Positions 6,544-36,353 of a stretch of DNA of 64,000 nucleotides are shown piece by piece. A program made the translations under genes and the position numbers. Within the stretch, counting starts at the first letter, position 1, and each line of letters begins with the position of its first letter. The notes beneath the pieces are model-generated. The model ran no database searches and had not been told where the DNA came from. It was given only the letters and a program-made list of their open reading frames with translations. Origin of the DNA: Erythrobacter sp. EC-HK427 (GTDB lineage: Bacteria > Pseudomonadota > Alphaproteobacteria > Sphingomonadales > Sphingomonadaceae); NCBI RefSeq assembly GCF_902498745.1, contig NZ_LR701479.1, forward strand, positions 66,292 through 130,291, read 5' to 3'.

Positions 6544-6545
6544 CA

Positions 6546-9088: not shown

Positions 9089-9112
9089 CGCCTGTTTCAC
9101 TGCGTTGGGAAG

Positions 9113-10962: not shown

Positions 10963-10973
10963 GCCCGCCGCAC

Positions 10974-11225: not shown

Positions 11226-11463
11226 TCAGTGTCAAAGTCCTTTGCGGGTCGGTATCAAAAGCGTTGGGGGCGCATAGCCGCGCCATGGAGAAAAGGGAAG
11301 AGCGCCCGTTGATCGCGCGCCGGAGCGCCCCGCCTGTGGCGCAAATGCCGCAATATCATTGCGACATTTTGATACTTTGGAGCCGATTGCCGTTTCGTGC
11401 GTTAGGCGGCAAAGGATGGTCTGCAAAAGCGGGCCGAGGCTCCGTGTTTCTCAAGGAAAAACT

Positions 11464-14349
11464 GTGCGAACCAACACCTATTGCAGCCTTGCGGCTATCG
11501 CGGCTGCGCTGGTTTTTCAACCTCTGGTCTCCGCCACTGCCATCGCGCAGGACCAGGAACCGACAACGCCTGAGGGGCCGGACCCGGCCTTGTCAGAAGA
11601 CGATATGAACACGATCATCGTCAATGGGGCGCGGCTGATCGGACGGGTGGACGCCCCGCAGCCGCCCATTCTGGAGCTGAACGAAGACGATATTGCTGCC
11701 TATGGCGTCGGCTCGATTGCCGAATTGCTGCAACAGCTTGGCCCCGAAATCACCAGCGGCCGGGGGCGCGGTGGCGGCGGAGGGCAGCCGGTTATCCTCG
11801 TCAACGGCATCCGCGTCGGCTCTTTCCGCGAACTGGCCAGCTATCCGCCCGAAGCGATCGAGCGGTTCGAGGTGTTTACCGAGGAGGTCGCCCAGCGCTT
11901 CGGCTATTCCGCCGACCAGCGGGTGGTGAACATCATCCTCAAGGACAATTACCAGAGCTTTGAGGTCGAAGGCGAATACAGCCAGCCCTGGGCCGGCGGG
12001 TTCTCCGAACAGGAGGTGCAGGGAACCTATCTGCGCATCGACGGCACGGCGCGACTGAACTTCAATGCCGAATGGAACAACACAACCCCGCTGACCGAAG
12101 CCGAGCGCGGGGTAGTCCAGACGACCAGCAGCGCGCCGCTGGTGGCAGGTGATCCCGATCCTGCGGCGTTCCGCAGCCTTGTGGGCGAATCCACCGGATA
12201 CGAGCTGACCGCCAACTGGAACAACGCCATCTCCGACACGGGCACGGTGCTCAGCCTCAATGCGACCTATGAGCGCGATGACAGCCTGCGCCTGCAAGGG
12301 CTGGACAGCGTGCTGCTCACCGGCCCCGCTCCGGACAATGAAACCCGTTTCCGCAGCTTCAACGCGATCGATCCGCTGGCCGTAGACCGGCGAACCGACA
12401 GCTATTCCACCGCCGCCACGCTCAACACCAATCTGGGTGACTGGCAGGTGACGGGAACGGTCGATGCGACGCTTGCCGATGCGCGCACACAGACGCAGGC
12501 GCGCATCGACACCACTGCGCTCGTCACCGCAGCGGCGGCAGGGACGCTCGATCTGGAGGCGGATCTGGGGATGTTCCCCGATGCAGGCTTCGATCAGGCC
12601 GACAGCCAGACCTATACGGTCAACGCGCTCGCCACCGCGCGGGGCAACCCGCTGTATATTCCCGGCGGCGATGTGTCGGCCACGCTGGTTGCGGGCTATC
12701 GCGCCAACGGGATCGACAGCACCGACACGCGCAATCCGGGTTTCGATACCGATCTCAGCCGCAGCCGCTACCAGGCGGGGCTCAACCTGGGCATTCCGAT
12801 CACCAGCCGTGACGAGGATTTCGGCGGGGCGCTGGGCGATATTTCGCTCAATCTGAACGGCAATGTTTACGAACAGTCCGACTTCGGCACCTTCACCGAT
12901 TGGTCTGCCGGGATCACGTGGGGCATTTTCGGCGACATTACCCTGTCCGCGACCTATCTGGAGCGCGAGACGTCCCCGTCACTCACCCAGCTCGGCACGC
13001 CGACTATCGAGACGCCCAATGTGCCGGTGTTCGACTTCGCCAATAACGAAACGGTGCTGGCGACCGTCCGCACCGGCGGCAATGCCGATTTGCTGGTGCA
13101 GCGGGAGACCGACTGGAAGTTCGGCATCCAGTGGAGCCTGCCCTTCGTCGATCGCGGCAGTCTGCAAATCGAATATTTCGACAACAGCTCGCGCAATGTC
13201 AGCAGCGGTTTTCCGGTGCTAACGCCGGAGATCGAGGCCGCCTTCCCTGACCGGGTAGAGCGCGATGTGAGCGGAACGCTTACCCTGCTTGACGAACGCT
13301 TTGTCAGCTTCGCGCGGCAGGATGCGCAGCGCATCCGCGTCGGGCTGAATATGGGCGGCCAGTTTGGCGGTGGTGACGGTCAAGGTGGCGGCCAAGGCGG
13401 CCCTCCCGGCGGTGCCCCCGCTGGCGGCCCGCCGCCCGGCGCAGGACAAGGCGGCGCTCCCGGAGCAGGGCAGGGCGCAGGTCGTCCCAATGCCGAGCAA
13501 TTCGCAGCCATGCGCCAGCGCTTCTGCGAGGCCGATCCTGCCGATCTGGTGACCCAGTTCAATGCCGTGCTCGAAGCCCAGCAAAATGGCACCGAGCCCC
13601 CGCTGGACGAGCAGGGCAACCCGATCACCATTCCGCCGCAAATGCTGCAAAGGCTGGTGGGCGAAGATGGCCGCATCAGCGCCGACCGGATTACGATGGC
13701 GCGCCAGTTCATCTGCACCACCGATGGCGCGCAACCCGCAGCCGGAGGTCGTCCGGGTGGCGGACAGCAGGCAGGTGCTGGTGGCGGCAGGCCCGGTGGC
13801 GGCGGTGGCCGTGGCGGCTTTGGCCGGGGCGGTTTCCCCTTCGGCGGCAACAATGACGGCCCGCCTGTTGCCCGCTGGTTCGCCAATCTCAACTACACCT
13901 ACGAAATCGACAACACCGTGCTGATCGCGCCCGGATTGCCGGAGCTCGATCTGCTGGCAGGCGATGCGCTGTCCGGCGGCGGGCAGCCGCGCCACTCGGC
14001 CCAGTGGCGCAGCGGGATTTTTTACGACGGATACGGGATGTTCCTGACCGCCAATTACACCGGAGAATCGGAAATTCGCGGGTCCGGACAGGCGGGCAGC
14101 ACCGATCTTTTCTTCGACGATTTCGCCACGCTGGATATTCGCACCTTCTTCGATCTCGGCCAGCGTGATTCCTGGGTCGAGGCGGTGCCGTTCCTGCGGA
14201 ATGTTCGCGTCGGGTTCGATATCGAGAACATTTTCGACAGCCGCCAGCGCGTGTTGGACAGCAATGGCGATACGCCCCTGCGCTATCAGCCCTTCCTGCT
14301 CGATCCGCGCGGCCGGTCGTTCGAGCTGGAATTCCGTAAGCTGTTCTAG
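11464..14349 (+). CDS. TonB-dependent receptor with glycine-rich insert
   Basis: About 961 residues. I prefer the GTG at 11464 (AAGGAA 6 bases upstream), which puts a signal peptide (CSLAAIAAALVFQPLV...AIAQ) at the N-terminus; an ATG at 11359 adds 35 residues. A plug domain follows (IIVNGARLIGR, QPVILVNGIRVGSF, RVVNIILKDNY) and then a beta barrel ending in EFRKLF, with the terminal Phe of outer-membrane proteins. Residues about 632-800 are an odd insert: two Gly/Pro-rich tracts flank a small domain with one cysteine at each end (RFCEADP, FICTTDG). No substrate-specific neighbour is present, so the ligand is unknown. Confidence 0.88.
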   Translation: MRTNTYCSLAAIAAALVFQPLVSATAIAQDQEPTTPEGPDPALSEDDMNTIIVNGARLIGRVDAPQPPILELNEDDIAAYGVGSIAELLQQLGPEITSGRGRGGGGGQPVILVNGIRVGSFRELASYPPEAIERFEVFTEEVAQRFGYSADQRVVNIILKDNYQSFEVEGEYSQPWAGGFSEQEVQGTYLRIDGTARLNFNAEWNNTTPLTEAERGVVQTTSSAPLVAGDPDPAAFRSLVGESTGYELTANWNNAISDTGTVLSLNATYERDDSLRLQGLDSVLLTGPAPDNETRFRSFNAIDPLAVDRRTDSYSTAATLNTNLGDWQVTGTVDATLADARTQTQARIDTTALVTAAAAGTLDLEADLGMFPDAGFDQADSQTYTVNALATARGNPLYIPGGDVSATLVAGYRANGIDSTDTRNPGFDTDLSRSRYQAGLNLGIPITSRDEDFGGALGDISLNLNGNVYEQSDFGTFTDWSAGITWGIFGDITLSATYLERETSPSLTQLGTPTIETPNVPVFDFANNETVLATVRTGGNADLLVQRETDWKFGIQWSLPFVDRGSLQIEYFDNSSRNVSSGFPVLTPEIEAAFPDRVERDVSGTLTLLDERFVSFARQDAQRIRVGLNMGGQFGGGDGQGGGQGGPPGGAPAGGPPPGAGQGGAPGAGQGAGRPNAEQFAAMRQRFCEADPADLVTQFNAVLEAQQNGTEPPLDEQGNPITIPPQMLQRLVGEDGRISADRITMARQFICTTDGAQPAAGGRPGGGQQAGAGGGRPGGGGGRGGFGRGGFPFGGNNDGPPVARWFANLNYTYEIDNTVLIAPGLPELDLLAGDALSGGGQPRHSAQWRSGIFYDGYGMFLTANYTGESEIRGSGQAGSTDLFFDDFATLDIRTFFDLGQRDSWVEAVPFLRNVRVGFDIENIFDSRQRVLDSNGDTPLRYQPFLLDPRGRSFELEFRKLF

Positions 14350-14615
14350 GCCGTAAACTCATAGATCACACCTCCGAGGCGCCGGAATGACGAACATATC
14401 GGGCGAAAGCGCGCGCCGGGAAGGCTGTCTGCCTTTCCAAGCGTGTTTTCGTTCGAGATGGAAGTCATTCCGGCGTCCCGTAGGGATTTGACCAAAATGG
14501 CCCATCACCGCGTCACAAAGGCTTGAAAGACCGCCGGTATTACTGCGCCTTTGCTCCTCGTGCTGGGCCATTTTGCTTCAAACCTCGGAGGTGGGATCTA
14601 TGAGTTTACGGCCTA
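14347..14615. repeat. 269-bp nested inverted-repeat element
   Basis: Outer arms 14347-14379 and 14583-14615 are 33 bp with one mismatch; inside, 14381-14391 pairs with 14464-14474, and 14493-14504 pairs with 14564-14575, and there is a small hairpin near 14419-14439. No credible coding frame is present. The left arm begins with the TAG stop of the upstream receptor gene. The layout resembles a non-autonomous MITE-like element or a large structured RNA. Confidence 0.75.
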
Positions 14616-14620
14616 GGCTT

Positions 14621-14640
14621 GAGGGGAGCGTGCTCCCCTC
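14621..14640 (+). promoter_or_regulatory. Hairpin just before the sufE start
   Basis: GAGGGGAGC-gt-GCTCCCCTC is a perfect 9-bp inverted repeat ending 2 bases before an ATG of sufE. Its left arm contains the only SD-like purine run in the region, so folding would mask ribosome binding. It could instead be a terminator stem for the upstream gene, but no T-run follows. Confidence 0.45.
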
Positions 14641-14642
14641 CT

Positions 14643-15062
14643 ATGTCCCGCCCCATGCGAACACTCGATGACATTTACGAAGAATACGACTTCCTCGAAG
14701 GCGATGAACGCTATCGCCTGCTCATCGAGTTGGGGCGCGAATTGGAAGAGATGCCCGGCGCGCTGAAGACCGACGCCACGCTGGTGCGCGGGTGTTCGGC
14801 GCAGGTGTGGGTCTATCCCACCGGAGAAGACAAAGCGCTGCACTTCCTTGCCGACAGCAACGCGGCCATAACCAAGGGCATCGTCGCGCTGGTGATCGCC
14901 GCCGTGCAGGACAGGCCCGCTGCGGAAGTCGCCGCGATGGATGTTTCTGCCGCCCTCTCCCGCTTCAACCTCACCGCGCAACTCAGTTCCAACCGCACGC
15001 AAGGTGTGCCCAATATGATCGCATTGGTGCAAGAACACGCCGCGCGCATCGCTGCCGGATAG
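14643..15062 (+). CDS. sufE: Fe-S cluster assembly sulfur acceptor SufE
   Basis: About 139 residues. The active-site cysteine is in TLVRGCSAQVWV, and RTQGVPNMIALVQEHA near the C-terminus is also conserved. SufE takes persulfide sulfur from the cysteine desulfurase SufS and passes it to the SUF scaffold. ATGs at 14643 and 14655 are both possible; the second begins directly at the conserved MRTLDDIYEEYDFL. It is not next to other suf genes here. Confidence 0.92.
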   Translation: MSRPMRTLDDIYEEYDFLEGDERYRLLIELGRELEEMPGALKTDATLVRGCSAQVWVYPTGEDKALHFLADSNAAITKGIVALVIAAVQDRPAAEVAAMDVSAALSRFNLTAQLSSNRTQGVPNMIALVQEHAARIAAG

Positions 15063-25126: not shown

Positions 25127-25336
25127 TCAGTTGGCCAGCAACCAGATCAGCAAGTAGATCAGGATGAAGCTGCCTACACCGGCAACCGCACCGATGGCGA
25201 AGACGATGCGCACGATCAGCGGATCGACATTGAAGTAGTTGGCGAGCCCGCCGCACACGCCGGCGATTTTCGCATTCCCCTTGTCGAGGCGGAAGCCGGC
25301 CGGGCGGTTGCCGTTCGAATTCTGGATATTGCTCAC
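25127..25336 (-). CDS. PspC-domain protein in a second Psp-type locus
   Basis: 69 residues: a short Asn-rich N-terminus, the PspC motif FRLDKGNAKIAGVCGGLANY (about 15-34), NVDPLIVRIVFA, and a membrane segment to the C-terminus. It lacks the C-terminal coil of PspC in the main operon, so it is a minimal PspC domain. GTG start overlapping the stop of the upstream 40-codon gene (ATGTGA), which shows coupling. It should be driven by the sigma-54-type promoter at 25817-25832. Confidence 0.9.
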   Translation of the reverse strand: MSNIQNSNGNRPAGFRLDKGNAKIAGVCGGLANYFNVDPLIVRIVFAIGAVAGVGSFILIYLLIWLLAN

Positions 25337-25455
25337 ATCAGCACCTGTGAAATCGTGGTTGCAGTCGGATTAGCGAAGCTGCTGACGAAAAGCGTCGCAG
25401 TCAAGGCCAGCGCGCCAAAGATGGCGGCGATGCGGCTGGAAACGGTCTGGGTCAT
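25333..25455 (-). CDS. Tiny membrane protein A, 40 residues (array of three)
   Basis: Starts MTQTVSSRIAAIFGALALTA, with one membrane helix (about 8-26) ending in the array signature ATLFVSSFANP (20-30) and a short polar tail. AAGGA lies upstream of the ATG. It overlaps the PspC-domain gene. The same signature occurs at the same distance from the start in the next two genes upstream, so the three are tandem duplicates. No known family recognised. Confidence 0.82.
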   Translation of the reverse strand: MTQTVSSRIAAIFGALALTATLFVSSFANPTATTISQVLM

Positions 25456-25482: not shown

Positions 25483-25593
25483 TCAGACGAGCGTGCCGGG
25501 GGTGGCGAAGCTGCTGACAAAGAGCGTTGCGGTCATGGCGAAAGCGCCGACGATGGCAAAAACGCGGGCGGTGAAGTCATTGGTGTTGGTCAT
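25483..25593 (-). CDS. Tiny membrane protein B, 36 residues (array of three)
   Basis: Starts MTNTNDFTARVFAIVGAFAM and continues to the signature TATLFVSSFATP (21-32); ends four residues later. AGGAG is 7 bases before the ATG. This is the shortest of the three copies, with almost nothing after the membrane helix, so the helix itself or its N-terminal polar patch must carry the function. Confidence 0.82.
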   Translation of the reverse strand: MTNTNDFTARVFAIVGAFAMTATLFVSSFATPGTLV

Positions 25594-25631: not shown

Positions 25632-25760
25632 TTAGGCAATCAGCGTCAGGACGCCGGGCGAAGCGGGGTTGGCAAAGCTGCTGATGAACAGCGTGGCAGA
25701 GATAACAACCGCGCCAAGTGCGGCACCGATTTTGCCGAGAATGTCGTTCGAGTTGCTCAT
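25632..25760 (-). CDS. Tiny membrane protein C, 42 residues (array of three)
   Basis: First gene after the sigma-54-type promoter. Starts MSNSNDILGKIGAALGAVVI, then the signature SATLFISSFANP (21-32) and a hydrophobic tail. AGGAA precedes the ATG. N-terminus MSNSND closely resembles MTNTND of copy B and MSNIQNSN of the PspC-domain protein. Its GKIGAALG segment is similar to SKLGHAAL in the 51-residue gene that leads the main psp operon. Confidence 0.83.
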   Translation of the reverse strand: MSNSNDILGKIGAALGAVVISATLFISSFANPASPGVLTLIA

Positions 25761-25816
25761 GGTCTATTTCCTATTCTGAGAGACTGTTGGTCTGTTGCGT
25801 CCCATGCCGCCTACTT

Positions 25817-25832
25817 TGCAGAGGGTGTGCCA
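25817..25832 (-). promoter_or_regulatory. Sigma-54-type promoter upstream of the tiny-protein/PspC locus
   Basis: On the minus strand TGGCACA-ccct-CTGCA matches the RpoN consensus TGGCACG-N4-TTGCW with two substitutions and keeps GG and GC exactly 10 bases apart. Predicted start near 25806, about 46 bases before the ATG at 25760. A second such promoter near Psp genes suggests PspF control of both loci. Confidence 0.8.
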
Positions 25833-25846
25833 AACTGAAAAAATCC

Positions 25847-25892
25847 CAGAATTCTGCCATTCTCGTTCATCGATCAGACAGTTTACATTCTG
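25847..25892. promoter_or_regulatory. Candidate activator sites for the second sigma-54 promoter
   Basis: CAGAATTCTG (25847-25856) is a perfect palindrome and ATTCTG recurs at 25887-25892, about 45 and 85 bases upstream of the predicted start. The half-site CCAGAAT/ATTCTGG is the same as at 5404-5434 near pspF. A separate inverted repeat AATCCCAA-caa-TTGGGATT lies at 25916-25934, closer to recF. Confidence 0.45.
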
Positions 25893-25986
25893 TTACTCCC
25901 CATTCATCGGGAATTAATCCCAACAATTGGGATTGCGCTTTCCGGTGGCACGCAGCCACGCGCTGCAATAGGGGTGGCGCAGACCT

Positions 25987-27075
25987 ATGGCGCTCGACCG
26001 CATCACCCTTTCCCGCTTCCGCAACCATGCCGAAACCCGGCTGGAAGGCGCGCGGGCGATCAATTTGCTGGTGGGGGAAAACGGCGCGGGGAAGACCAAT
26101 GTGCTGGAAGCGCTCTCGCTCTTTGCGCCGGGTCGCGGAATGCGGCGGGCCGCGCTGGCAGATATGGCGGGCCTTGGCGGTGACGGGGCATTTGCCGTCA
26201 GTTGCCAGCTCGATACCGGCGATGGCGGGGAGCCGGTGCGGCTCGGCACCGGAATCCAGACCGCGCGCCCCGGAAGGCGGATCGTGCAGGTCAATGGCGC
26301 GGAAGCGAGCGCGGTCAGCCTGGGCGAATGGCTTGGCCTTGGCTGGCTGACCCCGGCGATGGACCGTCTGTTTATGGACAGCGCGGGCACGCGGCGGCGC
26401 TATCTTGACCGGCTGGCGGTGGCGCTGGAGCCGGGCCATGCCCGCTATGCCAGCCGCTACGAAGCCGCTTTGCGCGAACGCAACAAGCTGCTCTCCGCCG
26501 ATTATGCCCCCGATCCGGCATGGCTGGATTCGGTCGAAGCGCAACTCGCCACCGAAGGCGCAGGGCTGGCGCAGGGCCGCGCGCGGCTGGTGCAGGCGCT
26601 GACGAAGGAATTGCAGGCGCTGCCGCCCGAACCCTTCGCGCGCCCTGCCCTCACCTATGTTCCCGGCGGCGCGCTGGAGGCGGCGGAACTGCGCCAGCAA
26701 TTTGCCGACAACCGCCCGCGCGAACGCGCCGCGCAGCGCACACTCACCGGCCCGCACCGCGATGAATTGCAGGTGGTGATGGATGCCAAAGCCATGCCCG
26801 CTGGCGAATGTTCTACGGGTGAGCAAAAGGCGATGCTGATCGCCATCACGCTCGCCCATGCGGCGCTGGCTGCGCGCGGGCGGCCCAGCCTGCTGCTGAT
26901 GGACGAAGTGGCCGCGCATCTCGATCCCGTAAGGCGCGAGGCGCTGTTCGAGCGGCTGCGCCATTGCGGTGCACAGGTCTGGCTGACCGGCACCGAAGCC
27001 GCGCCGTTCGAGGGGATATTGGAGGAAGCCGCCGTCTGGCGCGTGGCGGGCGGTCAGGTGGAGCGACTGTCGTGA
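25987..27075 (+). CDS. recF: DNA replication and repair protein RecF
   Basis: 362 residues, SMC-like ABC ATPase. Walker A NLLVGENGAGKTNVLEALS (about 28-46), the LRDERN-like RYEAALRERNKLL segment, signature STGEQKAMLIAI (about 278-289) and Walker B LLLMDEVAAHLD (about 302-313). RecF loads RecA at gaps with RecO and RecR. The stop overlaps the GTG start of the lasso-cyclase-like gene, so a core repair gene is the immediate upstream neighbour of the RiPP cluster. Confidence 0.96.
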   Translation: MALDRITLSRFRNHAETRLEGARAINLLVGENGAGKTNVLEALSLFAPGRGMRRAALADMAGLGGDGAFAVSCQLDTGDGGEPVRLGTGIQTARPGRRIVQVNGAEASAVSLGEWLGLGWLTPAMDRLFMDSAGTRRRYLDRLAVALEPGHARYASRYEAALRERNKLLSADYAPDPAWLDSVEAQLATEGAGLAQGRARLVQALTKELQALPPEPFARPALTYVPGGALEAAELRQQFADNRPRERAAQRTLTGPHRDELQVVMDAKAMPAGECSTGEQKAMLIAITLAHAALAARGRPSLLLMDEVAAHLDPVRREALFERLRHCGAQVWLTGTEAAPFEGILEEAAVWRVAGGQVERLS

Positions 27076-28967
27076 GCATGATCTACGGCGTGATGGCGCG
27101 CGGTTCGCAAGGCGTGCCGCCCGACTGGATCGCCGCCATGGCCGACCGCGCGGCGCGCTGGCCGGCCGACTATTGCGACAGCGACACAGCGCCCACCGCG
27201 CATATCGCCATCCGCGAACGCTCGGCCTATGCGGGCGCACCGCGGCAGGGCTTTGCCCGCAATACGGCACACGTGCTACTGTTCGACGGGCGGCTGGATA
27301 ACCGTGCGGAACTGGCGGGCGCATTGGGTGCAGGCGAAGCAAGCGATGCCGAATTCGCGCTCGCGGCGCTGGAGCGATGGGGTGAGCCGTTTGCGCAGCA
27401 TCTGATGGGCGACTTTGCTATCGCCGCGTGCGATGCCGCTGGGCAGCGGATGATGCTTGCCCGCGATGCGATGGGTATTCGTCCGCTCTTCCTCGCGGAA
27501 ACGGCGGATTTCCTCGCCTTCGCCAGCAATATGGACGTGCTGCTCGCGCTGCCATGGGTCGACCGGACACCCGACACCTTCTGGCTGGTCGATTACCTTG
27601 AAAAGCTGAAGAGTGACGAACCCAGCACTTTCTATCGCGGGATACATATCGTGTCGCCCGCGCATACGGCCACGATCACGCCGAACACGAGCAGCCGGAC
27701 GCGCCACTGGTCGCCCCCGCCGGTCGATGCGATGCTCGACATTACTCTTGGGGAAGCGGTGGCGGAGTATAGCCGCTTGTTTGACCAAGCGGTGGCCTGC
27801 CGCTTGCCCGCAAATGGCCCGGCGGCCTGCGAACTGAGCGGCGGGCTCGATTCGACCGCTATCGCCGCAACCGCCGCGCCCATGCTGGCGGGGCGCGGCA
27901 AGTGCCTGCTCACGCTGTCCCACGTGGTTGATCCTGCGGCGCCAATGTTGCGCCATGTTGTCGACGAGCGGGAGGAGATCACCGCGCTGCTCGGAGAGAT
28001 GCCGCCGGTAGAGCATCACTGGCTCGACACACCGCCGCCCTCGCACCTTGCGCAGCTCGCGGAGACGGTTGCGCGGCATGGCGGGCCGCAGCGCCGCGAT
28101 TTTGCCGCCGCGCAGCCGCGCGTGGCTGCAATCATGCGTGCCAATGATTGCCGCGTGCTGTTTTCCGGCCATGGCGGCGATCAATGCGCGACATCGAACG
28201 GGGCAGGCCTCGCGCAGAGCCTCGCCGAAGCAGGGGTGTGGGACGGATTGCGGCCAATCGTCGATTCCCGCAGCTTCTGGCTCTGGCGTTTCGGTTGGGG
28301 CCGCGCTGTGCTGCGCCGCCGCGCCTTGGGCAGGCTGCGCGAGTGGGCGCGGCAAGCGCCGCGCTTCATCTCGCCGGACGTCATCTCCGATGCTGACCTG
28401 CTGGCGCGCCGCCTCGCCTTTCCGCTGCGCCCGGCATGGGGCACGATCGCCGAGCGCGAGCGCGCCGTCATCACCAGCCCGCATATTGCCGAACGCACAC
28501 AGGATTGCGCCGTGGGCAGCGGGCCGGACGGGTTTTCTCATGTCTATCCAATGCTCGACCAGCGGCTGGTCGAATTTTGCCTGCGTGTGCCCGATCATCT
28601 GAAGCGCACGTCTGCGCAAAGGCGCGTGCTGATCCGCGCTGCAATGGCGGGCCGCCTGCCCGACGGCATCCGCCTGCGCGACAACAAATCGGGCGCGATC
28701 CTGCCGGTGGCGATGAGCAGCTTTTATGCCGACATTCCTGCTTTCCGCGCCCTCTTCGCCCGGCATCGGAACAATCCGCAGATCACCGGTTTAGTCGATT
28801 TGCAACGTATCGATTCGGCGCTCGAAACCTATGCTGCCAAGGGTGCGTTCGAAGGCGGGCCGAAGGAGCAGCAAATCCGCCGGGCGGCGCAGCTCTGTTT
28901 GCTGGCGGAACAGCAAGTATCGTGGGGGAAAACGGCCACATTACCCGCCCCAAGCCAAGAAACTTAG
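27072..28967 (+). CDS. Asparagine synthetase-like lasso peptide cyclase (C protein)
   Basis: 631 residues. The synthetase domain has the ATP-pyrophosphatase loop ELSGGLDSTAIA (SGGLDST at about 254-260). The N-terminal part keeps the glutaminase-like fold (LLFDGRLDNRAEL, GDFAIAACD) but begins MIYG, without the catalytic Cys2, as in McjC/LarC-type cyclases that activate an Asp or Glu side chain for macrolactam formation. The candidate precursor gene follows 79 bases later, then kinase and PqqD genes. I chose the GTG at 27072 (GTGA overlap with recF); ATG at 27078 is equally possible. A plain amide-forming synthetase acting on another substrate is the alternative. Confidence 0.85.
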   Translation: MSMIYGVMARGSQGVPPDWIAAMADRAARWPADYCDSDTAPTAHIAIRERSAYAGAPRQGFARNTAHVLLFDGRLDNRAELAGALGAGEASDAEFALAALERWGEPFAQHLMGDFAIAACDAAGQRMMLARDAMGIRPLFLAETADFLAFASNMDVLLALPWVDRTPDTFWLVDYLEKLKSDEPSTFYRGIHIVSPAHTATITPNTSSRTRHWSPPPVDAMLDITLGEAVAEYSRLFDQAVACRLPANGPAACELSGGLDSTAIAATAAPMLAGRGKCLLTLSHVVDPAAPMLRHVVDEREEITALLGEMPPVEHHWLDTPPPSHLAQLAETVARHGGPQRRDFAAAQPRVAAIMRANDCRVLFSGHGGDQCATSNGAGLAQSLAEAGVWDGLRPIVDSRSFWLWRFGWGRAVLRRRALGRLREWARQAPRFISPDVISDADLLARRLAFPLRPAWGTIAERERAVITSPHIAERTQDCAVGSGPDGFSHVYPMLDQRLVEFCLRVPDHLKRTSAQRRVLIRAAMAGRLPDGIRLRDNKSGAILPVAMSSFYADIPAFRALFARHRNNPQITGLVDLQRIDSALETYAAKGAFEGGPKEQQIRRAAQLCLLAEQQVSWGKTATLPAPSQET

Positions 28968-29046
28968 GCGGACCGCTATCGCCGCATTGACACAGATGTA
29001 ACAAACTGGCAGCGAGCCAGTCACATTCGATTGGGGGATAGCCAAT

Positions 29047-29181
29047 ATGACCAAGCAGACCAAAACCGAAGCGAAGCGCGTGTGGGAAGCCCCCACTTTG
29101 ACCGTGGTGGCCATGACCAGCGATGTGCTGGGTTCTATCGCCATGAGCACGGACGAAGATTTCACCGGCGTTCCCTCGTAA
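29047..29181 (+). CDS. Candidate lasso-type RiPP precursor peptide, 44 residues
   Basis: Starts MTKQTKTEAKRVWEAPTLTV. W13-E-A-P16-T-L18 fits the YxxPxL leader motif that B1/PqqD-type proteins bind, with Trp for Tyr. A likely core starts at G29 (GSIAMSTDEDFTGVPS), where D36 or E37 would close an 8- or 9-residue ring; the tail ends in serine, the residue phosphorylated in paeninodin-type peptides. The residue at -2 is Val, not the usual Thr, so the cut site is uncertain. There is no Tyr, Cys, His or Asn. GGGGGAT precedes the ATG and a strong hairpin follows the stop. Confidence 0.78.
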   Translation: MTKQTKTEAKRVWEAPTLTVVAMTSDVLGSIAMSTDEDFTGVPS

Positions 29182-29230
29182 GGCAGATTTTGGCCATGCG
29201 GAGCGGCACGCCCCGCCCTGCCCAGCATAG

Positions 29231-29256
29231 AACGGCTCCGGAAAACCGGGGCCGTT
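29231..29256 (+). terminator. Hairpin between precursor and kinase genes
   Basis: An 11-bp stem (29231-29241 with 29246-29256, one G-T pair) with an AAAA loop, followed by a short TTTGCATTT run. It probably is an attenuating terminator or 3' stabilising stem that makes the precursor message more abundant than the downstream enzyme messages, a common RiPP arrangement. Confidence 0.65.
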
Positions 29257-29286
29257 TGCATTTGGCCACGACATACTAAGGCGAAA

Positions 29287-30222
29287 ATGCCGCATTATCG
29301 CGTTCATGGCATGACGGTTGCGAGCGATTTGCCGCTGCCTCCTTTGTTGGCCGAAAGTGATTTGACTGAGCACGCTGCGGCTGATGTGCAGATCATCGCG
29401 GGCGACGTGCCGGAGCATCTGCCGACTGCCGAAATCACCCGCGAACACTATCAAGCCGCCCCCGCCGCCGTGCTGATGCGCGCGCCGGATGTGGGGCAGA
29501 TGCATATCACCGGCGGCAACCGCATTACCTACCGACTGGATGCAGGCGAGCGCGCAACCGATTTCGCCGCGCATCTCCTCGGCAGCGGTTGCGCGATCAT
29601 CCACCAGCAGCGCGGCAATGTGGTGCTGCACGGGGCGAGCCTGTGCCGCGACGGGCTGGCGTTTCTGGTGTGCGGCGTATCGGGCGTGGGCAAGTCCACA
29701 CTCGCGGCGCATGTGCTGGAAGCGGGCGGGCAGACACTGGGCGACGATGTCTGCCATATTGGCGATGCGCCGGGTTTCCTTGCCCATCCCGGCCCGCCTT
29801 CGACCAAGCTGGCGAGCGATGCGCTGCAAACGCTGGCCAGCTACCGAGGTCTCCCGCAGCACGGCCTCTGCCCCAGCGGCAAGACGATCCTCAGCACGGC
29901 AGACCGTTTCACCGCCACTCCGCACCCGCTTGGCGGGATCATCATGCTCGACTGGGCATTTGAGCACGAAGCCGTCACCGCAACGCGGCTTGCGCCCGGC
30001 GAAGCGATTGCGGCCCTGCGCGAAAACACCTTCCGCAAACGCTGCATCACCAGCGATATTGCGCAGACGCTGTTTTCCAAATGGAGCGCACTTGCGCAAA
30101 GCGTGCCGATCTGGCGGATTACCCGCCCCGAAGGGCGTGACACACAGGCGGAAATCGTCGAGATTGCCAGCGGTTTGCTCGCACAGATGCAACGCCAACC
30201 GGCTTTGGGGGGAATGAAGTGA
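29287..30222 (+). CDS. HPr kinase-like protein of the RiPP cluster
   Basis: 311 residues. The central domain has VLHGASLCRDGLAFLVCG leading into Walker A GVSGVGKST (130-138) and LGDDVCHI downstream, as in HprK/P-type kinases. Similar proteins (for example PadeK of paeninodin) phosphorylate the C-terminal serine of the lasso precursor, and the candidate precursor here does end in Ser. The HPr-phosphorylase function is unlikely since no PTS gene is near. Its end overlaps the PqqD-like gene by 4 bases. Confidence 0.85.
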   Translation: MPHYRVHGMTVASDLPLPPLLAESDLTEHAAADVQIIAGDVPEHLPTAEITREHYQAAPAAVLMRAPDVGQMHITGGNRITYRLDAGERATDFAAHLLGSGCAIIHQQRGNVVLHGASLCRDGLAFLVCGVSGVGKSTLAAHVLEAGGQTLGDDVCHIGDAPGFLAHPGPPSTKLASDALQTLASYRGLPQHGLCPSGKTILSTADRFTATPHPLGGIIMLDWAFEHEAVTATRLAPGEAIAALRENTFRKRCITSDIAQTLFSKWSALAQSVPIWRITRPEGRDTQAEIVEIASGLLAQMQRQPALGGMK

Positions 30223-30506
30223 CACAGGCCAAGGAAATGCAGCAGATCTTTGCACCGGCAGACGATGTGCTGATGTCGGATGCGGGCGAGCTGAAAGTGC
30301 TGATGTCGATGCAGCAGGGGCATTTCGTGGAATTGAACGCCACCGGCAGGGCGATCTGGGAGCGGCTCGACGGCATGGCCACGCTCGCCGCCATCGCTGC
30401 GGACTTGCAGGACGTTTACGACATTCCGCCAGAGCAGTGCGAGGCCGAAGTGTTAGAATTTGTCGGCAATCTGCGCGAGCATCGCCTCGTCGAACCCCGC
30501 GACTGA
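30219..30506 (+). CDS. PqqD-family / lasso B1-type leader recognition protein
   Basis: 95 residues, PqqD fold (RiPP recognition element): DVLMSDAGELKVLMSMQQGH, the conserved ELNATGRAIWERLDG (about 35-49), then LAAIAADLQDVYDIPPEQCE and a helix ending FVGNLREHRLVE. It should bind the leader WxxPxL motif and present the precursor to the modifying enzymes. It overlaps the kinase gene (GTGA) and is followed 12 bases later by the oxygenase. Confidence 0.9.
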   Translation: MTQAKEMQQIFAPADDVLMSDAGELKVLMSMQQGHFVELNATGRAIWERLDGMATLAAIAADLQDVYDIPPEQCEAEVLEFVGNLREHRLVEPRD

Positions 30507-30518
30507 TCGCTGTTCCCT

Positions 30519-31403
30519 GTGCACGAATCCGCGCGCATCCAGTATGATATGCTCGCCCGGATCGGTGATGCGGGGATCAACGCTGCGCTAATCGCCCAGC
30601 TCGATGCCAAGCTGGCGGACACCGCGCCCAACACCGACCAGCGCCAGATGCGCGCCAATTTGCTGCGGCGGAGCGGGGATATTGACGCGACGCGGGATGC
30701 CTATCGCACGCTGGTGCCCGGCGCGATGGAAGCCCATCCGCAGCTCACCATTCCGCCGGGGCTGACCAGCAAGGACGGGCAGAGGATTGCTCCGCTGATC
30801 GTGATCGACGATCTGCTGCCCGCCGCCGCGATGGAGGCACTCTATCGCCACGCCTGCGATATTGCCGACCGTTTCCGCCATGCCCGCCTTTCCTCCGGCG
30901 AAAACCTGTATGATCCGGACAAGCGCGAAACGCTGCTGACGTGGGAATTCGAAGTGCTGCGCCAGCACTTCCTCGATTACGTGGCGGATAATCTGTACGG
31001 CTTTCAGGACGCACTGGAACTGCCGCGCTTCACCGTCGAACGCTCTGAAATCAAGCTGACCAACCATCTGGAAGGCGGCTTCTTCAATACCCACCGCGAT
31101 AATCACGGCAGCGGGCGCGAGGCGGGGCGGGCCCTCACCTGGCTCTACTATTTCAGCGCCACCCCGCCGCGCTTTGCAGGCGGCGAGCTGTTCATTCTCG
31201 ATTCCGATCCGGCCAATGCCGGATGTTCGGACAGCTTCTTCACCAAGGTCGAACCCCGAGCCAACCGCTTCGTCGCCTTCCCCAGCTGGTTCTACCACGC
31301 GGTCGGCCCCACCCATGTGCCGGGCAACGCCTTTGCCGACGGGCGCTTTGCTGTGAGCGGCCATCTGCACAAGCCCGCCGACACGCTGGACTGGCCGTGG
31401 TGA
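30519..31403 (+). CDS. 2-oxoglutarate/Fe(II)-dependent oxygenase (prolyl hydroxylase-like)
   Basis: 294 residues. A helical N-terminal part (1-90) precedes the jelly-roll domain with metal ligands H192 and D194 (FFNTHRDNHGSG) and H260 (FPSWFYHAVGP); R276 (DGRFAVSGH) is a plausible 2OG-binding residue. It resembles P4H-type hydroxylases. In this cluster it may hydroxylate the peptide, creating or altering an acceptor for the next enzyme. GTG start at 30519. It overlaps the sulfotransferase gene by 4 bases. Confidence 0.85.
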   Translation: MHESARIQYDMLARIGDAGINAALIAQLDAKLADTAPNTDQRQMRANLLRRSGDIDATRDAYRTLVPGAMEAHPQLTIPPGLTSKDGQRIAPLIVIDDLLPAAAMEALYRHACDIADRFRHARLSSGENLYDPDKRETLLTWEFEVLRQHFLDYVADNLYGFQDALELPRFTVERSEIKLTNHLEGGFFNTHRDNHGSGREAGRALTWLYYFSATPPRFAGGELFILDSDPANAGCSDSFFTKVEPRANRFVAFPSWFYHAVGPTHVPGNAFADGRFAVSGHLHKPADTLDWPW

Positions 31404-32344
31404 GCGCGCCAGGCCATCTGCCGATGCGCTTGCAGGCGGCGGGCGCGCATCTGCTGGTGCGGATGGTCGAGCCTGAAGCGCTGGACTGGAGCGCGCCCTT
31501 CTTCCGCGATGCCGTGCCAGCGGATGCAGCGGCACAGTCGATGCAGCCCTATGCGGCGTGGAAGGCGGCGCAAAACCCGCCCGATCCCGATTACAGCGAC
31601 GTGGCGATCATCGCCCATGTCGCGCGCTGTGGCTCCACCCTGCTTGCCCGCAATATCGCCGCGAACGACCGCACGGTGGTGCTGAGCGAGCCGCCCTTCT
31701 TTGCCGCGCTGCATGGCAGGCTTGGCCAGCTCGCCAGCGAGCGCGAGGCGCTCGACGCCGCGCTCGCCATCCTTGCATCGTGGCGTGGCTGGGCGAAGGC
31801 GCGGGGCAAACGTCTGGTGCTCAAATTGTCGAGCCAATTGGGGCCGTTCCTCCCGCTGCTCCATCGGCAGATGCCGGGCGCTCGGTTCGTGCTGCTGCAC
31901 CGCGACCCGCTGCCTGTGCTCGAATCGCTCGCCCGCAAGCGCACTTCCCGTCTGCGTGCCGAGGCTGAAGGGGAAGGCGCAGGGATTTTGCCGGAGCTGG
32001 AGGGGCTGGACGCGGATCGCTATCTGCTCGCCGCCGCGAGCAGCTATTTGCGCGCCATCACCGCGATGGGCGTATTGGCCGACAAGGCGCCGTGTATCGC
32101 CTATGCCGATCTGGCCGCGCGCTATCCGGAGATCTGCCGCGCCTTGGGCCTTGATCCCGCCGACGCGCCGCCGTGGAACGGTGCGATCAATGCCAAGGCA
32201 CGCGGTCAGGCACGCCACACGCCCTACACCCCGGTTCCCACTGCGGAGCTAGACGCCTTCGCGGCTGCCCACCCCGCCTTGCTCGCCCGCTTGCAGGGCG
32301 ACTATCACCGCTTGTGCGCCAAGCACCCCATGCCAGCCCTTTAG
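31400..32344 (+). CDS. Sulfotransferase family protein
   Basis: 314 residues from the GTG at 31400 (GTGA overlap). PAPS-binding elements: 5'-phosphosulfate loop HVARCGSTLLAR (about 73-84) and 3'-phosphate element GARFVLLHRDPLPVLES (about 162-178). It should move sulfate from PAPS to a hydroxyl or amine. Since the candidate precursor has no tyrosine, a Ser/Thr or a hydroxyl added by the oxygenase would be the acceptor, unless the true substrate lies elsewhere. It is 10 bases upstream of the permease-repeat gene. Confidence 0.82.
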   Translation: MSAPGHLPMRLQAAGAHLLVRMVEPEALDWSAPFFRDAVPADAAAQSMQPYAAWKAAQNPPDPDYSDVAIIAHVARCGSTLLARNIAANDRTVVLSEPPFFAALHGRLGQLASEREALDAALAILASWRGWAKARGKRLVLKLSSQLGPFLPLLHRQMPGARFVLLHRDPLPVLESLARKRTSRLRAEAEGEGAGILPELEGLDADRYLLAAASSYLRAITAMGVLADKAPCIAYADLAARYPEICRALGLDPADAPPWNGAINAKARGQARHTPYTPVPTAELDAFAAAHPALLARLQGDYHRLCAKHPMPAL

Positions 32345-32354
32345 GACGCCCACA

Positions 32355-35300
32355 GTGAACCAGGCCACGCTCCCCACCATGACCCTGCCCGAAGGCAAGG
32401 CCCGCGATTACCGGCTGCCGCTGGTGATCCTGCTGGCCGCAATGCTGGCGATCTATTTCTGGACAAGCAGCCGCTATCCGGGGCTGAGCGAGAAGGCGAT
32501 GATGGGGGGCGATACGCCCTTGTCGGGCCTGTCCTTTGATATTGCCATCGAAGTGGTGCCGGGGGCGAGCTTCCTTTCGGTGCTCTGGGCGAACACGATC
32601 AACTGGATCGTCACCAATATCAAAGGCATGACCTTCGGCGTGCTGTTCGGTTCGATGGCGCTGACGCTGCTGTCGCTGATCCAGCGCCGCTCGTTCAAAA
32701 ACGGCTTCGCCAATTCGGCGCTGGGCGCGGTGATCGGTGCGCCGCTGGGCGTCTGCGTCAATTGCGCGGTGCCGATTGCCATGGGCCTGCACGCCGGACG
32801 GTTGCGGCTGGAGACAACGCTCTCCGCCATGCTGGCTAGCCCGACATTGAATGTGATCGTCGTCACCATGAGCTTCGCCCTGCTGCCGGTGCAGGTTGCG
32901 GCGGTAAAGCTGCTCGCCGCGCTCACCATGGTGCTGGTGGGCGTGCCGCTGCTCTGCCGCTTCATCCTTAAGGAGGAGACCGAAGCGACCCGCAATGCCA
33001 GCGCCGCAAGCGCAGTCGGGCAGAAGCTGACCGGTCTCTCGGGCTGGCTGATGCGCCACCTCGCCCCGCGCGAATACGAGGCGGGCGAATATGGCGTGGT
33101 CGACACGCTGATCTGGTTCGTGCGGCATTATGCGCGCAATTTCTTCTTCATCTTCATCGTCACCGTGCCGATGATGTTCCTCGCCGCGCTGCTCGGCGCG
33201 CTATTTGTCGAGGTGTTCAGCCCCAACGCCTTTGTCGGCGTCTTGCCCCAGTCGAGCCTGTTGGCGATTTTCGGCGGGATGCTGATCGTCGCGCTGTTCC
33301 TGAGCTTCGCGCCCGCGCCCATCGCGCTCGACGTGATCCTCACCGCCGTGCTGCTGAGCATCGGCATGAGCGATTCTTACGGCGCGGCGGCAGTGGTCGC
33401 GCTGGGATCGTTCAGTGTTTATGCCTTCATCGTCATCTGGAAGGCGATTTCGCTGCGCACGGCCGTCTCGCTGTGGCTGATGGTTGTGTGCGCGGCTGTC
33501 TGCGCGGGGATTTTGGCGCAATTCCTCGGCGGCCCCGCGCGCGAATACCGGTTGGAAAGTTATCGCCAGCTGATGGCCGCGAGCGAGCCGATCGCCTGGC
33601 CCGCAGCACCGGACACCGAAACCGCCGTGTCGCTCGCCGATTTGCGCGAGCGGTTCGATGCGCAGGCCGTGCCGGTGGAAACGCTGGATTTCGCGCAGGA
33701 AGGCGAGCGGATCGCCGGTCTTGCGCTACTCCCCGTCACGCCGGTAGCGGCGGCAGAGGACGGCACCGCCTTCACCCGCATTGTCGGCCGCGATCTGGGG
33801 ATCGGCATTACCGAGCCGCTGCATTCCATGGCGCGTTCCTTCTTCCACCAGTTCGAAGGCGGCGTGGCGGCGGGCGACATCCACGGCGATGGCTGGACGG
33901 ATGTGGTGCTGCGCAAAAGTTTCCTCGATAGCGGCCTCGCCATCTACGCCAATGTCGACGGCGAATTTGTGCGCCAGCAGGCCGATCTCGGCCCGGTGGA
34001 CGATGCGCTGGCGCACGTGGTCGCGTTGGTCGATCTGAACGGCGACGCCGCGCCCGACCTGTTCGTTTCCACCCAGAGCGCGGGCAATTACGTCTTCTGG
34101 AACACGGATGGAGGGTTCGATGCCGCCGCCATGGTCAAATTGCCGGGCGATGACCGTTCGATCACGCAATCCGCGGCCTTCGCCGATTTCAACCGCGACG
34201 GGGTGCTAGACATCGCATTGGGCAATGCGGGGCTGGGCATCTCCTCGCCCGGTTTTGCGGGGCATTATGTGGAGAGCCAGCAGAACATCCTGCTGTTCGG
34301 GCGCGGCGAAGGGGCGTTCGAGGCACAGCCCTTCGGCGAATATCCCGGCCAGACGCTGTCGCTGCTCGCCAGCGATTTTGACCGCAACGGCACCATTGAT
34401 CTCGTCGCTGGAGACGACGTCGCCAATACCGATGAATTCCTGATGTTCGCCGCCGACGGCAGCAGCACCATACCGACGGGCGCGGGCGTGCCCTTCCCGT
34501 TCCGGATGTTCACCTCGATGAGCTACGACGAAGGCGACATCAATAACGACCTCATCCCTGACTATTACGGCGGGCAGATAGCCAGCGCCGACCGCGCGGG
34601 CACGACGCAGGAACGCATCACCAATCTCACCACCATTTGCGCGCAGGTGGGGGACGATATGCGCTGGGACGCGGCGGAGCGCGAAGCCTGCCTCGCCCGG
34701 CTCAACGCCATCACGCAGCTCAAGGGCGGCTATCAGGCCGGCCTGCAATCGGGCTGCGAACGGATGCGTGATCCGGGCCTGCGCAGCCAATGCGCGGCCC
34801 GCGCGCTGACGCAATATTACTTCCAGAACCGCACCGACGCGCCCGACACCGCGATGCACGCGCGCTGCCTGCGCGAAATGGCGGGCAATCCGCGGTTCGA
34901 GGCGATGTGTGCCTCGCTGCTCCTCGAAATGGAGGAAAAGCCCGGTTGGGACGCGCTGGAGGAACTGCTCGGCCCGACCTACACCAATCGCAACCTGCTG
35001 TTTGTCGGCCGCGCCGCTGGCGGCTTTGACGAAACCGCCGCACCGCAGGGCGTGCATATGCCCGGCTGGACGTGGGACGCGCGCTTTACCGATCTCGATC
35101 AGGACGGCTGGCAGGACCTGCTCGTCATGAGCGGTTACTGGGCGCGCACGCCGGAGGATGACCGCAACAGCTTCTACCGCAATGTCGAAGGCCGGTTCGA
35201 GGATGCAGGCGCCGCCTTCGGGCTCGACGATCCGATCCCGTCATTGAGCGCGGCACGGCTCGATTTCGACCGCGACGGCGATGTCGATCTGATCCGCTCG

Positions 35301-35639
35301 CTCTCCGGCCCCAATGTCATCGCCCACCGCAATGATCGCCCGGCGGGGCGCGGGCTGTGGGTGTATTTGCGCCAGAGCGGCGGCAATTCGGCAGCGATTG
35401 GCGCGCGGGTGACGATCTGCACCGGCGGGGTGGCGCGGGTGAGCGTCGGTTCATGCCAGGTGCGCCCGATCAAGGCGAGCGGCGGCTACCAGTCCTTCGA
35501 TCCGGTCGCCGCGCATTTCGGCCTTGGCAGCGCGGGCGAAGTGTCGCTGATCGTGGTGACATGGCCCGATGGCAGCGAAAGCCTGATCCGTCCGCGCTCC
35601 TTGCGCGGGGGTGAGGTTGTGGTGACACGAGGGCGTTAA
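32355..35639 (+). CDS. Permease fused to FG-GAP/VCBS and ASPIC repeats
   Basis: 1094 residues. The first 400 residues hold about ten membrane helices of the ArsP/DUF318 permease type with C134-x2-C137 (LGVCVNCAVPIAMGL). The rest is probably periplasmic: FG-GAP-type calcium-loop motifs (DIHGDGWTD, DLNGDAAPD, DFNRDGVLD, DFDRNGTID, DLDQDGWQD, DFDRDGDVD), a helical cysteine-bearing insert at about 770-860 (TICAQV, ACLARL, GCERM, QCAARA, RCLREM), then an ASPIC/UnbV ending. GTG start. The last gene of the RiPP operon, it may export, bind or confer immunity to the product. I know of no characterised protein with this fusion. Confidence 0.85.
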   Translation: MNQATLPTMTLPEGKARDYRLPLVILLAAMLAIYFWTSSRYPGLSEKAMMGGDTPLSGLSFDIAIEVVPGASFLSVLWANTINWIVTNIKGMTFGVLFGSMALTLLSLIQRRSFKNGFANSALGAVIGAPLGVCVNCAVPIAMGLHAGRLRLETTLSAMLASPTLNVIVVTMSFALLPVQVAAVKLLAALTMVLVGVPLLCRFILKEETEATRNASAASAVGQKLTGLSGWLMRHLAPREYEAGEYGVVDTLIWFVRHYARNFFFIFIVTVPMMFLAALLGALFVEVFSPNAFVGVLPQSSLLAIFGGMLIVALFLSFAPAPIALDVILTAVLLSIGMSDSYGAAAVVALGSFSVYAFIVIWKAISLRTAVSLWLMVVCAAVCAGILAQFLGGPAREYRLESYRQLMAASEPIAWPAAPDTETAVSLADLRERFDAQAVPVETLDFAQEGERIAGLALLPVTPVAAAEDGTAFTRIVGRDLGIGITEPLHSMARSFFHQFEGGVAAGDIHGDGWTDVVLRKSFLDSGLAIYANVDGEFVRQQADLGPVDDALAHVVALVDLNGDAAPDLFVSTQSAGNYVFWNTDGGFDAAAMVKLPGDDRSITQSAAFADFNRDGVLDIALGNAGLGISSPGFAGHYVESQQNILLFGRGEGAFEAQPFGEYPGQTLSLLASDFDRNGTIDLVAGDDVANTDEFLMFAADGSSTIPTGAGVPFPFRMFTSMSYDEGDINNDLIPDYYGGQIASADRAGTTQERITNLTTICAQVGDDMRWDAAEREACLARLNAITQLKGGYQAGLQSGCERMRDPGLRSQCAARALTQYYFQNRTDAPDTAMHARCLREMAGNPRFEAMCASLLLEMEEKPGWDALEELLGPTYTNRNLLFVGRAAGGFDETAAPQGVHMPGWTWDARFTDLDQDGWQDLLVMSGYWARTPEDDRNSFYRNVEGRFEDAGAAFGLDDPIPSLSAARLDFDRDGDVDLIRSLSGPNVIAHRNDRPAGRGLWVYLRQSGGNSAAIGARVTICTGGVARVSVGSCQVRPIKASGGYQSFDPVAAHFGLGSAGEVSLIVVTWPDGSESLIRPRSLRGGEVVVTRGR

Positions 35640-35651
35640 ATCACGCCCGCT

Positions 35652-36353
35652 CTACTCCCCCTCCTCCGGCAGCGCGCCGATCACTGTATCGACCGTCGCT
35701 GCGACCATCGCGTCGACACCCTCGGCGGTCGGGTGGATGCGGTCGGGCAACAGCAGGTCGGGATTGGCCGCGAGGGGTTCCATAAAGAACGGCACCAAAG
35801 TCGCGCCATATTGCTCGGCGAGTGCGGGATAGAGCCCGTCAAACGCGGCCTGGTATTCCGGCCCCAGATTGGGCGGCGCGCGCATTCCCATCAGCACGAC
35901 GGGAATGTCCCGCTCGGCAAAGGTCTGCAACATGGCCTCCAGATTGGCGCGGGTCTGTTCGGGGGATAGCTGGCGCAGCAGATCATTCCCGCCCAGCTCC
36001 AGAATGGCGAGATCGGGCACTTCGCCCAGATTATCAAGCACATAGGCCAGCCGCTGCGCCCCCGCCTGCGTCGTATCGCCCGAAACGCCTGCATCAATGA
36101 CCCGCGCATTGATGCCGCGCGCGCGCATCACCGCTTCCAGCTTTTCGGGATAGCCTTGGTTCTCCTCCAGCTCATACCCCGCCATCAGACTGTCGCCAAA
36201 GCCGAGGATCACCCGCTCCGGCCCCATCACCGGCAGCACGTCTTCGATGGGCGCATCGACTTCGGCCCGAACGTCATTTGGCGCTTGGCTGACAGGCGCT
36301 TCGGCACCGCAAGCGGCCAGCGCCAACGCGGGAATGATCGACGAAAAGCGCAT
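35652..36353 (-). CDS. tesA: Arylesterase / GDSL lysophospholipase-like lipoprotein
   Basis: About 233 residues from MRFSSIIPALALAACGAEAP (lipobox LAAC); an ATG at 36395 is in frame but less likely. SGNH hydrolase blocks: ILGFGDSLMAGYEL (catalytic Ser), GVSGDTTQAGAQRL, LELGGNDLLRQL, and DRIHPTAEGVDAM with Asp and His. A periplasmic esterase or thioesterase. It is divergent from an ABC transporter pair, the same neighbourhood as tesA-ybbA-ybbP in E. coli. Confidence 0.9.
   Translation of the reverse strand: MRFSSIIPALALAACGAEAPVSQAPNDVRAEVDAPIEDVLPVMGPERVILGFGDSLMAGYELEENQGYPEKLEAVMRARGINARVIDAGVSGDTTQAGAQRLAYVLDNLGEVPDLAILELGGNDLLRQLSPEQTRANLEAMLQTFAERDIPVVLMGMRAPPNLGPEYQAAFDGLYPALAEQYGATLVPFFMEPLAANPDLLLPDRIHPTAEGVDAMVAATVDTVIGALPEEGE

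Follow-up and report, generated by a model that had tools for sequence, protein, structure and literature searches.

The window analysed here, a stretch of 64,000 nucleotides from Erythrobacter sp. EC-HK427, carries at 27072-35639 of its + strand seven genes in the order C, A, K, B1, O, ST and P, which form a real, conserved lasso peptide cluster of the kinase type, extended by a hydroxylase (O) and a sulfotransferase (ST) and accompanied by a recurrent partner, the permease-propeller fusion P. C, A, K and B1 stand for the macrolactam cyclase, the precursor peptide, an HprK-like kinase and a PqqD-fold leader-binding protein. The data presented show gene content, conservation, motifs, folds, linkage and co-occurrence. 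No gene for the protease B2 or the ABC exporter D was found in the window cluster, which is apparently split from both. On balance, we favor the view that a lasso peptide is made from the 44-residue precursor, tailored by K, O and ST, with B2 and D acting in trans and P as a partner; a hydroxylated, sulfated product is our prediction.

A sequence-only reading of this DNA had described seven same-strand genes here, beginning with an asparagine synthetase homologue without Cys2, and had equated the cyclase, B1 and HprK-like kinase with the lasso set of the paeninodin type. All seven genes were found in the places it gave, C combines GATase_7 and Asn_synthase domains with a Ser after the start residue, and a kinase-type lasso pathway is supported; the whole set is incomplete, with B2 and D lying elsewhere. 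The same reading had the pathway add hydroxylation and sulfation, and here the hydroxylase and sulfotransferase genes stand, while the two modifications are predicted from them.

Recurrence of the gene set

A search with ST gave matches in seven of 159 genomes of the family, of which, besides that of the window, G037 (L014) and G016 (L015) share the gene set and encode a peptide that can be recognised; a different cluster type surrounds the further ST matches examined (L017, L020, L021). The GTDB scan with P and an order-level search with O added Aurantiacibacter zhengii (L059), an Erythrobacter metagenome-assembled genome (MAG; L060), an uncultured Erythrobacter (L062) and G419 (L151). All seven clusters (hereafter O/ST clusters) contain C, K, B1, O, ST and a precursor gene, and P adjoins six of them; in G037 it lies on a separate contig (L030). 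Gene order varies, being C-N-K-B1-O-A-ST-P in L015 (N is a nucleotidyltransferase gene) and P, A / K-B1-O-ST-C in L151. Five of the six genes flanking the window cluster were matched in the flanks of L060, and none was found in the stretches compared around L014, L015, L059, L062 and L151. The sequence-only reading had left a chance neighbourhood as the alternative, to be recognised by homologous clusters without the 44-codon gene. This is ruled out, because the gene set and the peptide recur in six other genomes, five of them with different surroundings.

Cyclases of the seven O/ST clusters formed a single clade (support 100/100) in a tree of 32 rows, from which duplicate loci (L057, L058, L063, L066, L069, L071, L074, L118) had been dropped and in which the L060 row has an upstream extension. 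The lasso cyclase model NF033535 was the top NCBIfam model for C (217 bits, cut-off 525) and the lasso PqqD model NF033536 that for B1 (60.5 bits, cut-off 80). Among the cluster proteins, the Pfam families Asn_synthase, GATase_7, PqqD, 2OG-FeII_Oxy_3, ArsP_1, FG-GAP_3 and UnbV_ASPIC were matched above their curated cut-offs, and Sulfotransfer_3 (22.4 of 27 bits) and all HprK models below theirs. A PDB sequence search with K reached HPr kinases at E 0.12 only. The kinase residues H, GxSGxGKS and DD are present in K of the window and in eight others of the ten sequences aligned, with L016 deviating (GKT, ED); the same H, G..GxGKS and DD residues are reported for BsfK (PMC10368454).

The genes are tightly packed from K onwards, with 4-base overlaps at K/B1 and O/ST and gaps of 12 bp (B1/O) and 10 bp (ST/P). 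Wider gaps separate C from A (79 bp) and A from K (105 bp), the latter containing a hairpin that could raise the level of A over K (Table 1). This hairpin was not among the predicted terminators, an Rfam scan of 25800-35800 gave no match, and a sigma-70 promoter scan, uninformative for this host organism, found none against 1.5 expected. The cluster is flanked by a RecF-family gene, overlapping C by 4 bases, and a GDSL lipase gene. Further upstream, on the - strand, three small similar open reading frames (ORFs) of 36-42 residues (25333-25455, 25483-25593 and 25632-25760) have the stretch ATLF(V/I)SSFA(N/T)P in common, and L060 has a similar pair at the equivalent position.

Table 1. Features of the cluster in the window (2OG, 2-oxoglutarate; PAPS, 3'-phosphoadenosine-5'-phosphosulfate; pLDDT, predicted local distance difference test; RRE, recognition element for precursor leaders)
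Feature	Position	Strand	Description
C	27072-28967	+	631 residues; asparagine-synthetase-like macrolactam cyclase without Cys2; PF00733 and PF13537; NF033535 best NCBIfam match, below cut-off; in the clade of seven O/ST cyclases
A	29047-29181	+	44-residue precursor; leader ...WEAPTLTVVAMTSDVL; proposed core GSIAMSTDEDFTGVPS
Hairpin	29230-29257	+	12 pairs, GC-rich, between A and K; fold z -2.55; possible attenuator
K	29287-30222	+	311 residues; HprK-like kinase; H, GxSGxGKS and DD residues; weak HprK profile matches
B1	30219-30506	+	95 residues; PqqD-fold leader-binding protein (RRE); PF05402, 73.5 bits
O	30519-31403	+	294 residues; 2OG-Fe(II) oxygenase with N-terminal extension; PF13640; H192, D194, H260, R276; 6t8m E 3e-5
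ST	31400-32344	+	314 residues; PAPS-type sulfotransferase; AlphaFold2 pLDDT 86.5; 4gox Z 14.0; RCGSTL, R168, S176
P	32355-35639	+	1094 residues; ArsP-type permease fused to FG-GAP/UnbV beta-propeller; propeller-CRTAC1 Z 29.2

Precursor peptide, oxygenase and sulfotransferase

The window precursor has the leader motif WEAPTL, in which W replaces the Y of the YxxPxL type, 16 residues before Gly29 (lasso leaders place this motif about 16-17 residues ahead of the core), and its predicted core, GSIAMSTDEDFTGVPS, runs from Gly1 through Asp8 and Glu9 to Ser16. We compared eight precursors from the seven O/ST clusters, two of them from L059. All eight share WxxPx(L/M/V), a proposed core 16 residues past the W, the stretch DE(D/G)(F/W), Asp or Glu at core positions 7-9 and Ser as the last residue; the first core residue is Gly in the window and Gly, Ser or Ala in the others. 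A ring is predicted from Gly1 to Asp8 or Glu9 of the window core; closure on Asp10, which lies outside positions 7-9, was ruled out. Since the core begins equally far from the W in the Thr(-2) relatives L035, L039 and L041, we place the window cut after ...SDVL, with Val at -2. The C-terminal Ser is the expected target of K, by the precedent of paeninodin and SyanK.

None of the eight O/ST cores contains Tyr, and Tyr sulfation was ruled out for the window precursor, which has no Tyr. Sister precursors in L035-L038, L064 and L070, unlike these cores, have FYxxS or a similar ending, which offers a candidate sulfo-Tyr site near the C-terminus.

With a threshold of E 0.01, a precursor profile matched 23 of 396 genomes. 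Five of the places were strong (E < 1e-12), but four of these were members of the profile and the fifth a near-copy, so that their high scores arise by construction. No further strong place was found in these genomes; the remaining 18 matches had E 1.6e-4 or worse, and 13 of them sit within open frames of at least 896 residues. In the 19 GTDB loci with C, K or B1 described below, a pattern designed to find such ORFs gave candidates in 16 and none in L065, L073 and L120.

The iron triad of O and its Arg276 are invariant in seven sequences, and O matches the prolyl 4-hydroxylase structure 6t8m (Table 1). Its profile found 18 oxygenases in 16 of the 396 genomes. Four (G000, G037, G419, G089) match the model over most of its length, each of them next to C/K/B1, in agreement with the earlier view that the oxygenase belongs with these genes; the one from G089 (L039) is a divergent member (24% identical), and its cluster has other sulfotransferases. 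The other 14 are shorter relatives, and lasso gene profiles found nothing in six of their neighbourhoods (L152-L157).

We tested the fold of ST because its Pfam match fell below the cut-off and a PDB sequence search gave chance matches only. The AlphaFold2 model, built with ten homologues, was closest to 4gox (root-mean-square deviation 4.2, 209 residues aligned), 4gbm (Z 13.7) and human TPST1 (Z 13.1), and Foldseek gave E 2e-6 at a TM score of only about 0.4. Ten sequences all keep the RCGSTL loop, R168 and S176; in PAPS sulfotransferases such motifs are named the 5'-PSB loop and the 3'-PB Arg/Ser. Judged by its model, ST is a sulfotransferase fold. Sulfotransferases of CurM and olefin synthase sulfate a beta-hydroxy acid before a decarboxylative elimination. 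Because these are the nearest solved folds to ST, sulfate might act here as a leaving group, such that a beta-hydroxylated, sulfated invariant Glu would become vinylglycine and the unphosphorylated lasso would have a predicted [M+H]+ of 1549.684; we regard this as a long shot.

ST and O are neighbours in all seven O/ST clusters. In six sister neighbourhoods (L017, L020, L021, L038, L039, L041) a sulfotransferase lies near a hydroxylase of PF05118, a Pfam family differing from that of O; the PF05118 genes were chosen by eye ahead of scanning, and the sulfotransferase call in L021 is a match to our own profile. Given these sister pairs, and since the C-terminal Ser is the only hydroxyl residue that the eight cores have in common by position, the acceptor of ST is probably a hydroxyl that O introduces into a residue of DE(D/G)(F/W), which is the weakest step of the proposal. 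Alternatively, an ordinary kinase-type lasso peptide may be sulfated by ST directly on a core Ser or Thr, with O acting separately on another residue. The window core offers Ser2, Ser6, Thr7 and Thr12 besides Ser16, an extra Ser or Thr that ST could use directly is present in every one of the eight cores, and the ST-bearing sister clusters L031 and L043 have no identified hydroxylase; but no Ser or Thr other than the C-terminal Ser is shared by position, and the constant proximity of O and ST also counts against this alternative. We therefore treat direct sulfation as a serious, though unlikely, alternative to sulfation of an O-made hydroxyl.

Protease and exporter genes outside the cluster, and the permease-propeller fusion

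Two lasso B2 proteins of the source genome exceed the NF033537 cut-off of 33 bits, scoring 60.8 and 66.5. One of them, P0011, is encoded at about 3.01 Mb on contig C2 in an N-B2-D operon, in which N is an NTP_transf_5 nucleotidyltransferase and D an ABC exporter. Measured along the 3,123,037-bp contig, 2.9 Mb separate this operon from the cluster; on a circular contig the distance would shrink to about 200 kb. P0011 falls into one group with the B2 encoded near the L059 cluster (support 82/82). B2 was present in all 12 P-bearing genomes searched; it is unlinked to the O/ST cluster in G000, G016, G037 and G419 (about 67 kb off in the last) and lies in the cluster neighbourhood in L059, where a vanadium-haloperoxidase-like (VCPO/PAP2) protein is encoded between P and B2 (13216-14703). 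The four B2-negative genomes in this comparison were taken from the top of a list.

Matches to D (query P0012) stand beside B2 in G000, G023 and G419; the match in G016 contains one internal stop and lies on a third contig. A search with P0012 at 1e-70 found no D in G037 and G089, where a D profile finds an exporter beside N (L044, L042). N occurs in 18 of the 159 family genomes, including 11 of 11 with P (hypergeometric 1.1e-12, relatedness ignored); it is near P in seven of these and unlinked in four (G000, G037, G089, G023). To us the pathway looks split, not broken.

A different explanation of the missing protease is that the product is not a lasso at all, and is a phosphorylated, hydroxylated and sulfated linear peptide of the LPP kind that is never cut by B2, with C idle or otherwise used. 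Bacillota RiPP (ribosomally synthesized and post-translationally modified peptide) clusters composed of an HprK kinase, a recognition element, an NTP transferase and an MsbA-like exporter, with neither C nor B2, are indeed described (PMC13381572). However, C is kept in seven of seven O/ST clusters, the cores have lasso-like geometry, and B2 occurs near the L059 cluster and elsewhere in every P-bearing genome searched; a linear product thus appears improbable compared with a lasso peptide whose B2 is supplied in trans.

The source genome has a second lasso cluster on C2 at about 902 kb (L016 7213-11394), comprising C (P0014), an ORF, MKQPMAKKARYERPVLTVFGSVRNLTGGSGGMLNGDSTSMDML, with Thr(-2), a PrmA-like methyltransferase, K, B1 and an N-like gene; no B2 was found in the L016 stretch.

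P was found in 11 of the 159 family genomes, and eight of the 11 loci adjoin C/K/B1. Its propeller superimposes on CRTAC1 over 442 residues (root-mean-square deviation 2.8). The C-terminal part of about 700 residues is acidic (98 D/E against 56 K/R) and has six Cys invariant in ten homologues, which suit an extracytoplasmic location, so this domain is probably outside the cytoplasm. The P model has a pLDDT of 70 overall and is poor in the membrane part, and the transport path is left out of our claims. A role in export, recognition or self-protection is possible.

The GTDB scan covered the best 80 of 230 relatives of P, several of which repeat places already among the loci compared. Nineteen of these 80 loci have C, K or B1 in the flanks of P, most of them in sphingomonads; the others are from a Rhodobacteraceae MAG (L067, L127), Bacteroidota L087 (C, D, N), L120 (C only) and a Verrucomicrobiia MAG, L099. 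In L099 (9986-20414), no more than 3 kb separates P from K, C, B1 and a sulfotransferase gene of the RCGST type, and a precursor-like ORF there ends in Ser. The association of P with lasso genes reaches another phylum in this locus. The remaining 61 of the best 80 have no lasso genes nearby. Within the family, the earlier condition for rejecting the set, namely a permease occurring mostly apart from cyclase, kinase and PqqD genes, did not hold. Precursor-like ORFs are not enriched around these 61 loci (1 near in 171 kb against 7 far in 799 kb), and the sole near ORF, in the Flavobacteriales MAG L107, is on a 6.2 kb contig that also carries an ABC exporter. For this reason P is not taken as a lasso partner everywhere; it is a wide family with a lasso-associated branch. 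In L032 (G089; 7358-11813), a P homologue follows three precursor-like ORFs ending in Ser, with no C, K or B1 near.

Sulfotransferases and permeases have many substrates, and together with the 61 P loci just mentioned this leaves room for O, ST and P acting on a non-peptide substrate, for example a surface glycan, and travelling with the lasso genes for other reasons. We find this very improbable, as O and ST lie inside the cluster in seven of seven genomes and the near-full O-profile oxygenases occur only there (4/4).

Proposed pathway and comparison with known systems

In the lasso pathway that we propose, of which the cut site, ring size, order of steps, target residues, supply in trans and role of P are predicted, B1 would bind the WxxPxL leader and present the peptide to the tailoring enzymes. 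K would phosphorylate the C-terminal Ser, O would hydroxylate a residue of the conserved DEDF stretch, and ST would transfer sulfate from PAPS, most likely onto the hydroxyl made by O. B2 may then cleave after ...SDVL and C join Gly1 to Asp8 or Glu9 around the tail, with B2 and the exporter D provided in trans by the unlinked N-B2-D operon, whose N may modify the phosphate further. P, with its probably extracytoplasmic beta-propeller, would be a partner dedicated to this pathway, with a part in export, recognition or self-protection. The complete version, in which ST sulfates the O-made hydroxyl to give a hydroxylated, sulfated and phosphorylated lasso from unlinked loci with a dedicated permease-propeller, is put forward tentatively.

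Several findings, in addition to the extra Ser/Thr residues and the clusters L031 and L043, in which no hydroxylase was identified, weigh against this pathway. The scores of C, B1 and K all fall short of the curated cut-offs of the lasso or HprK models. Position -2 of the leader is Val in place of Thr, as in most O/ST precursors (V in five, I in two, T in one). The choice of the C-terminal Ser as target of K is uncertain because BsfK (PMC10368454) and LppK (PMC13381572) act on Ser3. The step of O may differ in L060, because a second PF13640 oxygenase gene (6074-6796, - strand) lies between C and K inside that O/ST cluster. B2 is also present in G014 and G103, of the same genus and without P, and the orphan B2 proteins could serve L016 instead, since it too has no B2.

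If the proposal is true, this would be the first lasso pathway described to join hydroxylation and sulfation, within the literature searched, from which subscription papers were mostly absent. It would also give a rule for this set of sphingomonad clusters, namely that the hydroxylase provides the acceptor of the sulfotransferase, and add P as a partner in lasso biology. The genes for lasso B2 and exporter could then be unlinked, and single-locus mining would label such clusters incomplete.

Our literature search on sulfated lasso peptides, sulfated RiPPs and beta-hydroxylases with lasso peptides found no such pathway described, subscription journals being mostly outside it. A search for FG-GAP, UnbV and permease together found no paper, and PMC10368454 was the only one found that links a lasso peptide with FG-GAP. 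Sulfotransferase genes have been recorded in Firmicutes lasso clusters (PMC8498205). A Pontixanthobacter table lists, under the near-consecutive numbers 1738-1748, lasso B2, a nucleotidyltransferase, sulfotransferases, Asp beta-hydroxylase, PqqD, Asn synthase and a glycosyltransferase (PMC10040529).

Among known systems, the clusters of the paeninodin type and that of SyanK from Sphingobium yanoikuyae resemble the window in C, in A with a C-terminal Ser, in the HprK-like K and in B1, and differ from it in that the window cluster is without B2 and D, has Val(-2) and adds O, ST and P. In this type K reportedly acts on the linear precursor and phosphorylates its C-terminal Ser, doing so repeatedly in the proteobacterial example (PMC8498205). 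Lasso precursors with Ile/Val(-2) and kinases are published, Sphingomonadales among them, and Ile(-2) is processed in bsf (PMC10368454). The bsf cluster of Bradymonas sediminis has Ile/Val(-2), the kinase and B1 as in the window, contains N and is bordered by an FG-GAP protein; in contrast to the window as we read it, BsfK targets Ser3, BsfA ends in Asp, and the bordering FG-GAP protein is presumed by its authors to be uninvolved (PMC10368454). The canucin hydroxylase CanE is, like O, a 2OG-Fe enzyme of a lasso cluster, with the linear precursor as its substrate, but it modifies a C-terminal Asp, whereas the window core ends in Ser (PMC8498205). The closest solved folds to ST, the sulfotransferase domains of CurM and olefin synthase and the tyrosylprotein sulfotransferases (Z 13-14), share at most 21% identity with it, and the window core has no Tyr. 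For P, the two halves are known from CRTAC1-like FG-GAP/UnbV propellers and from ArsP permeases, and both are fused here in one protein.

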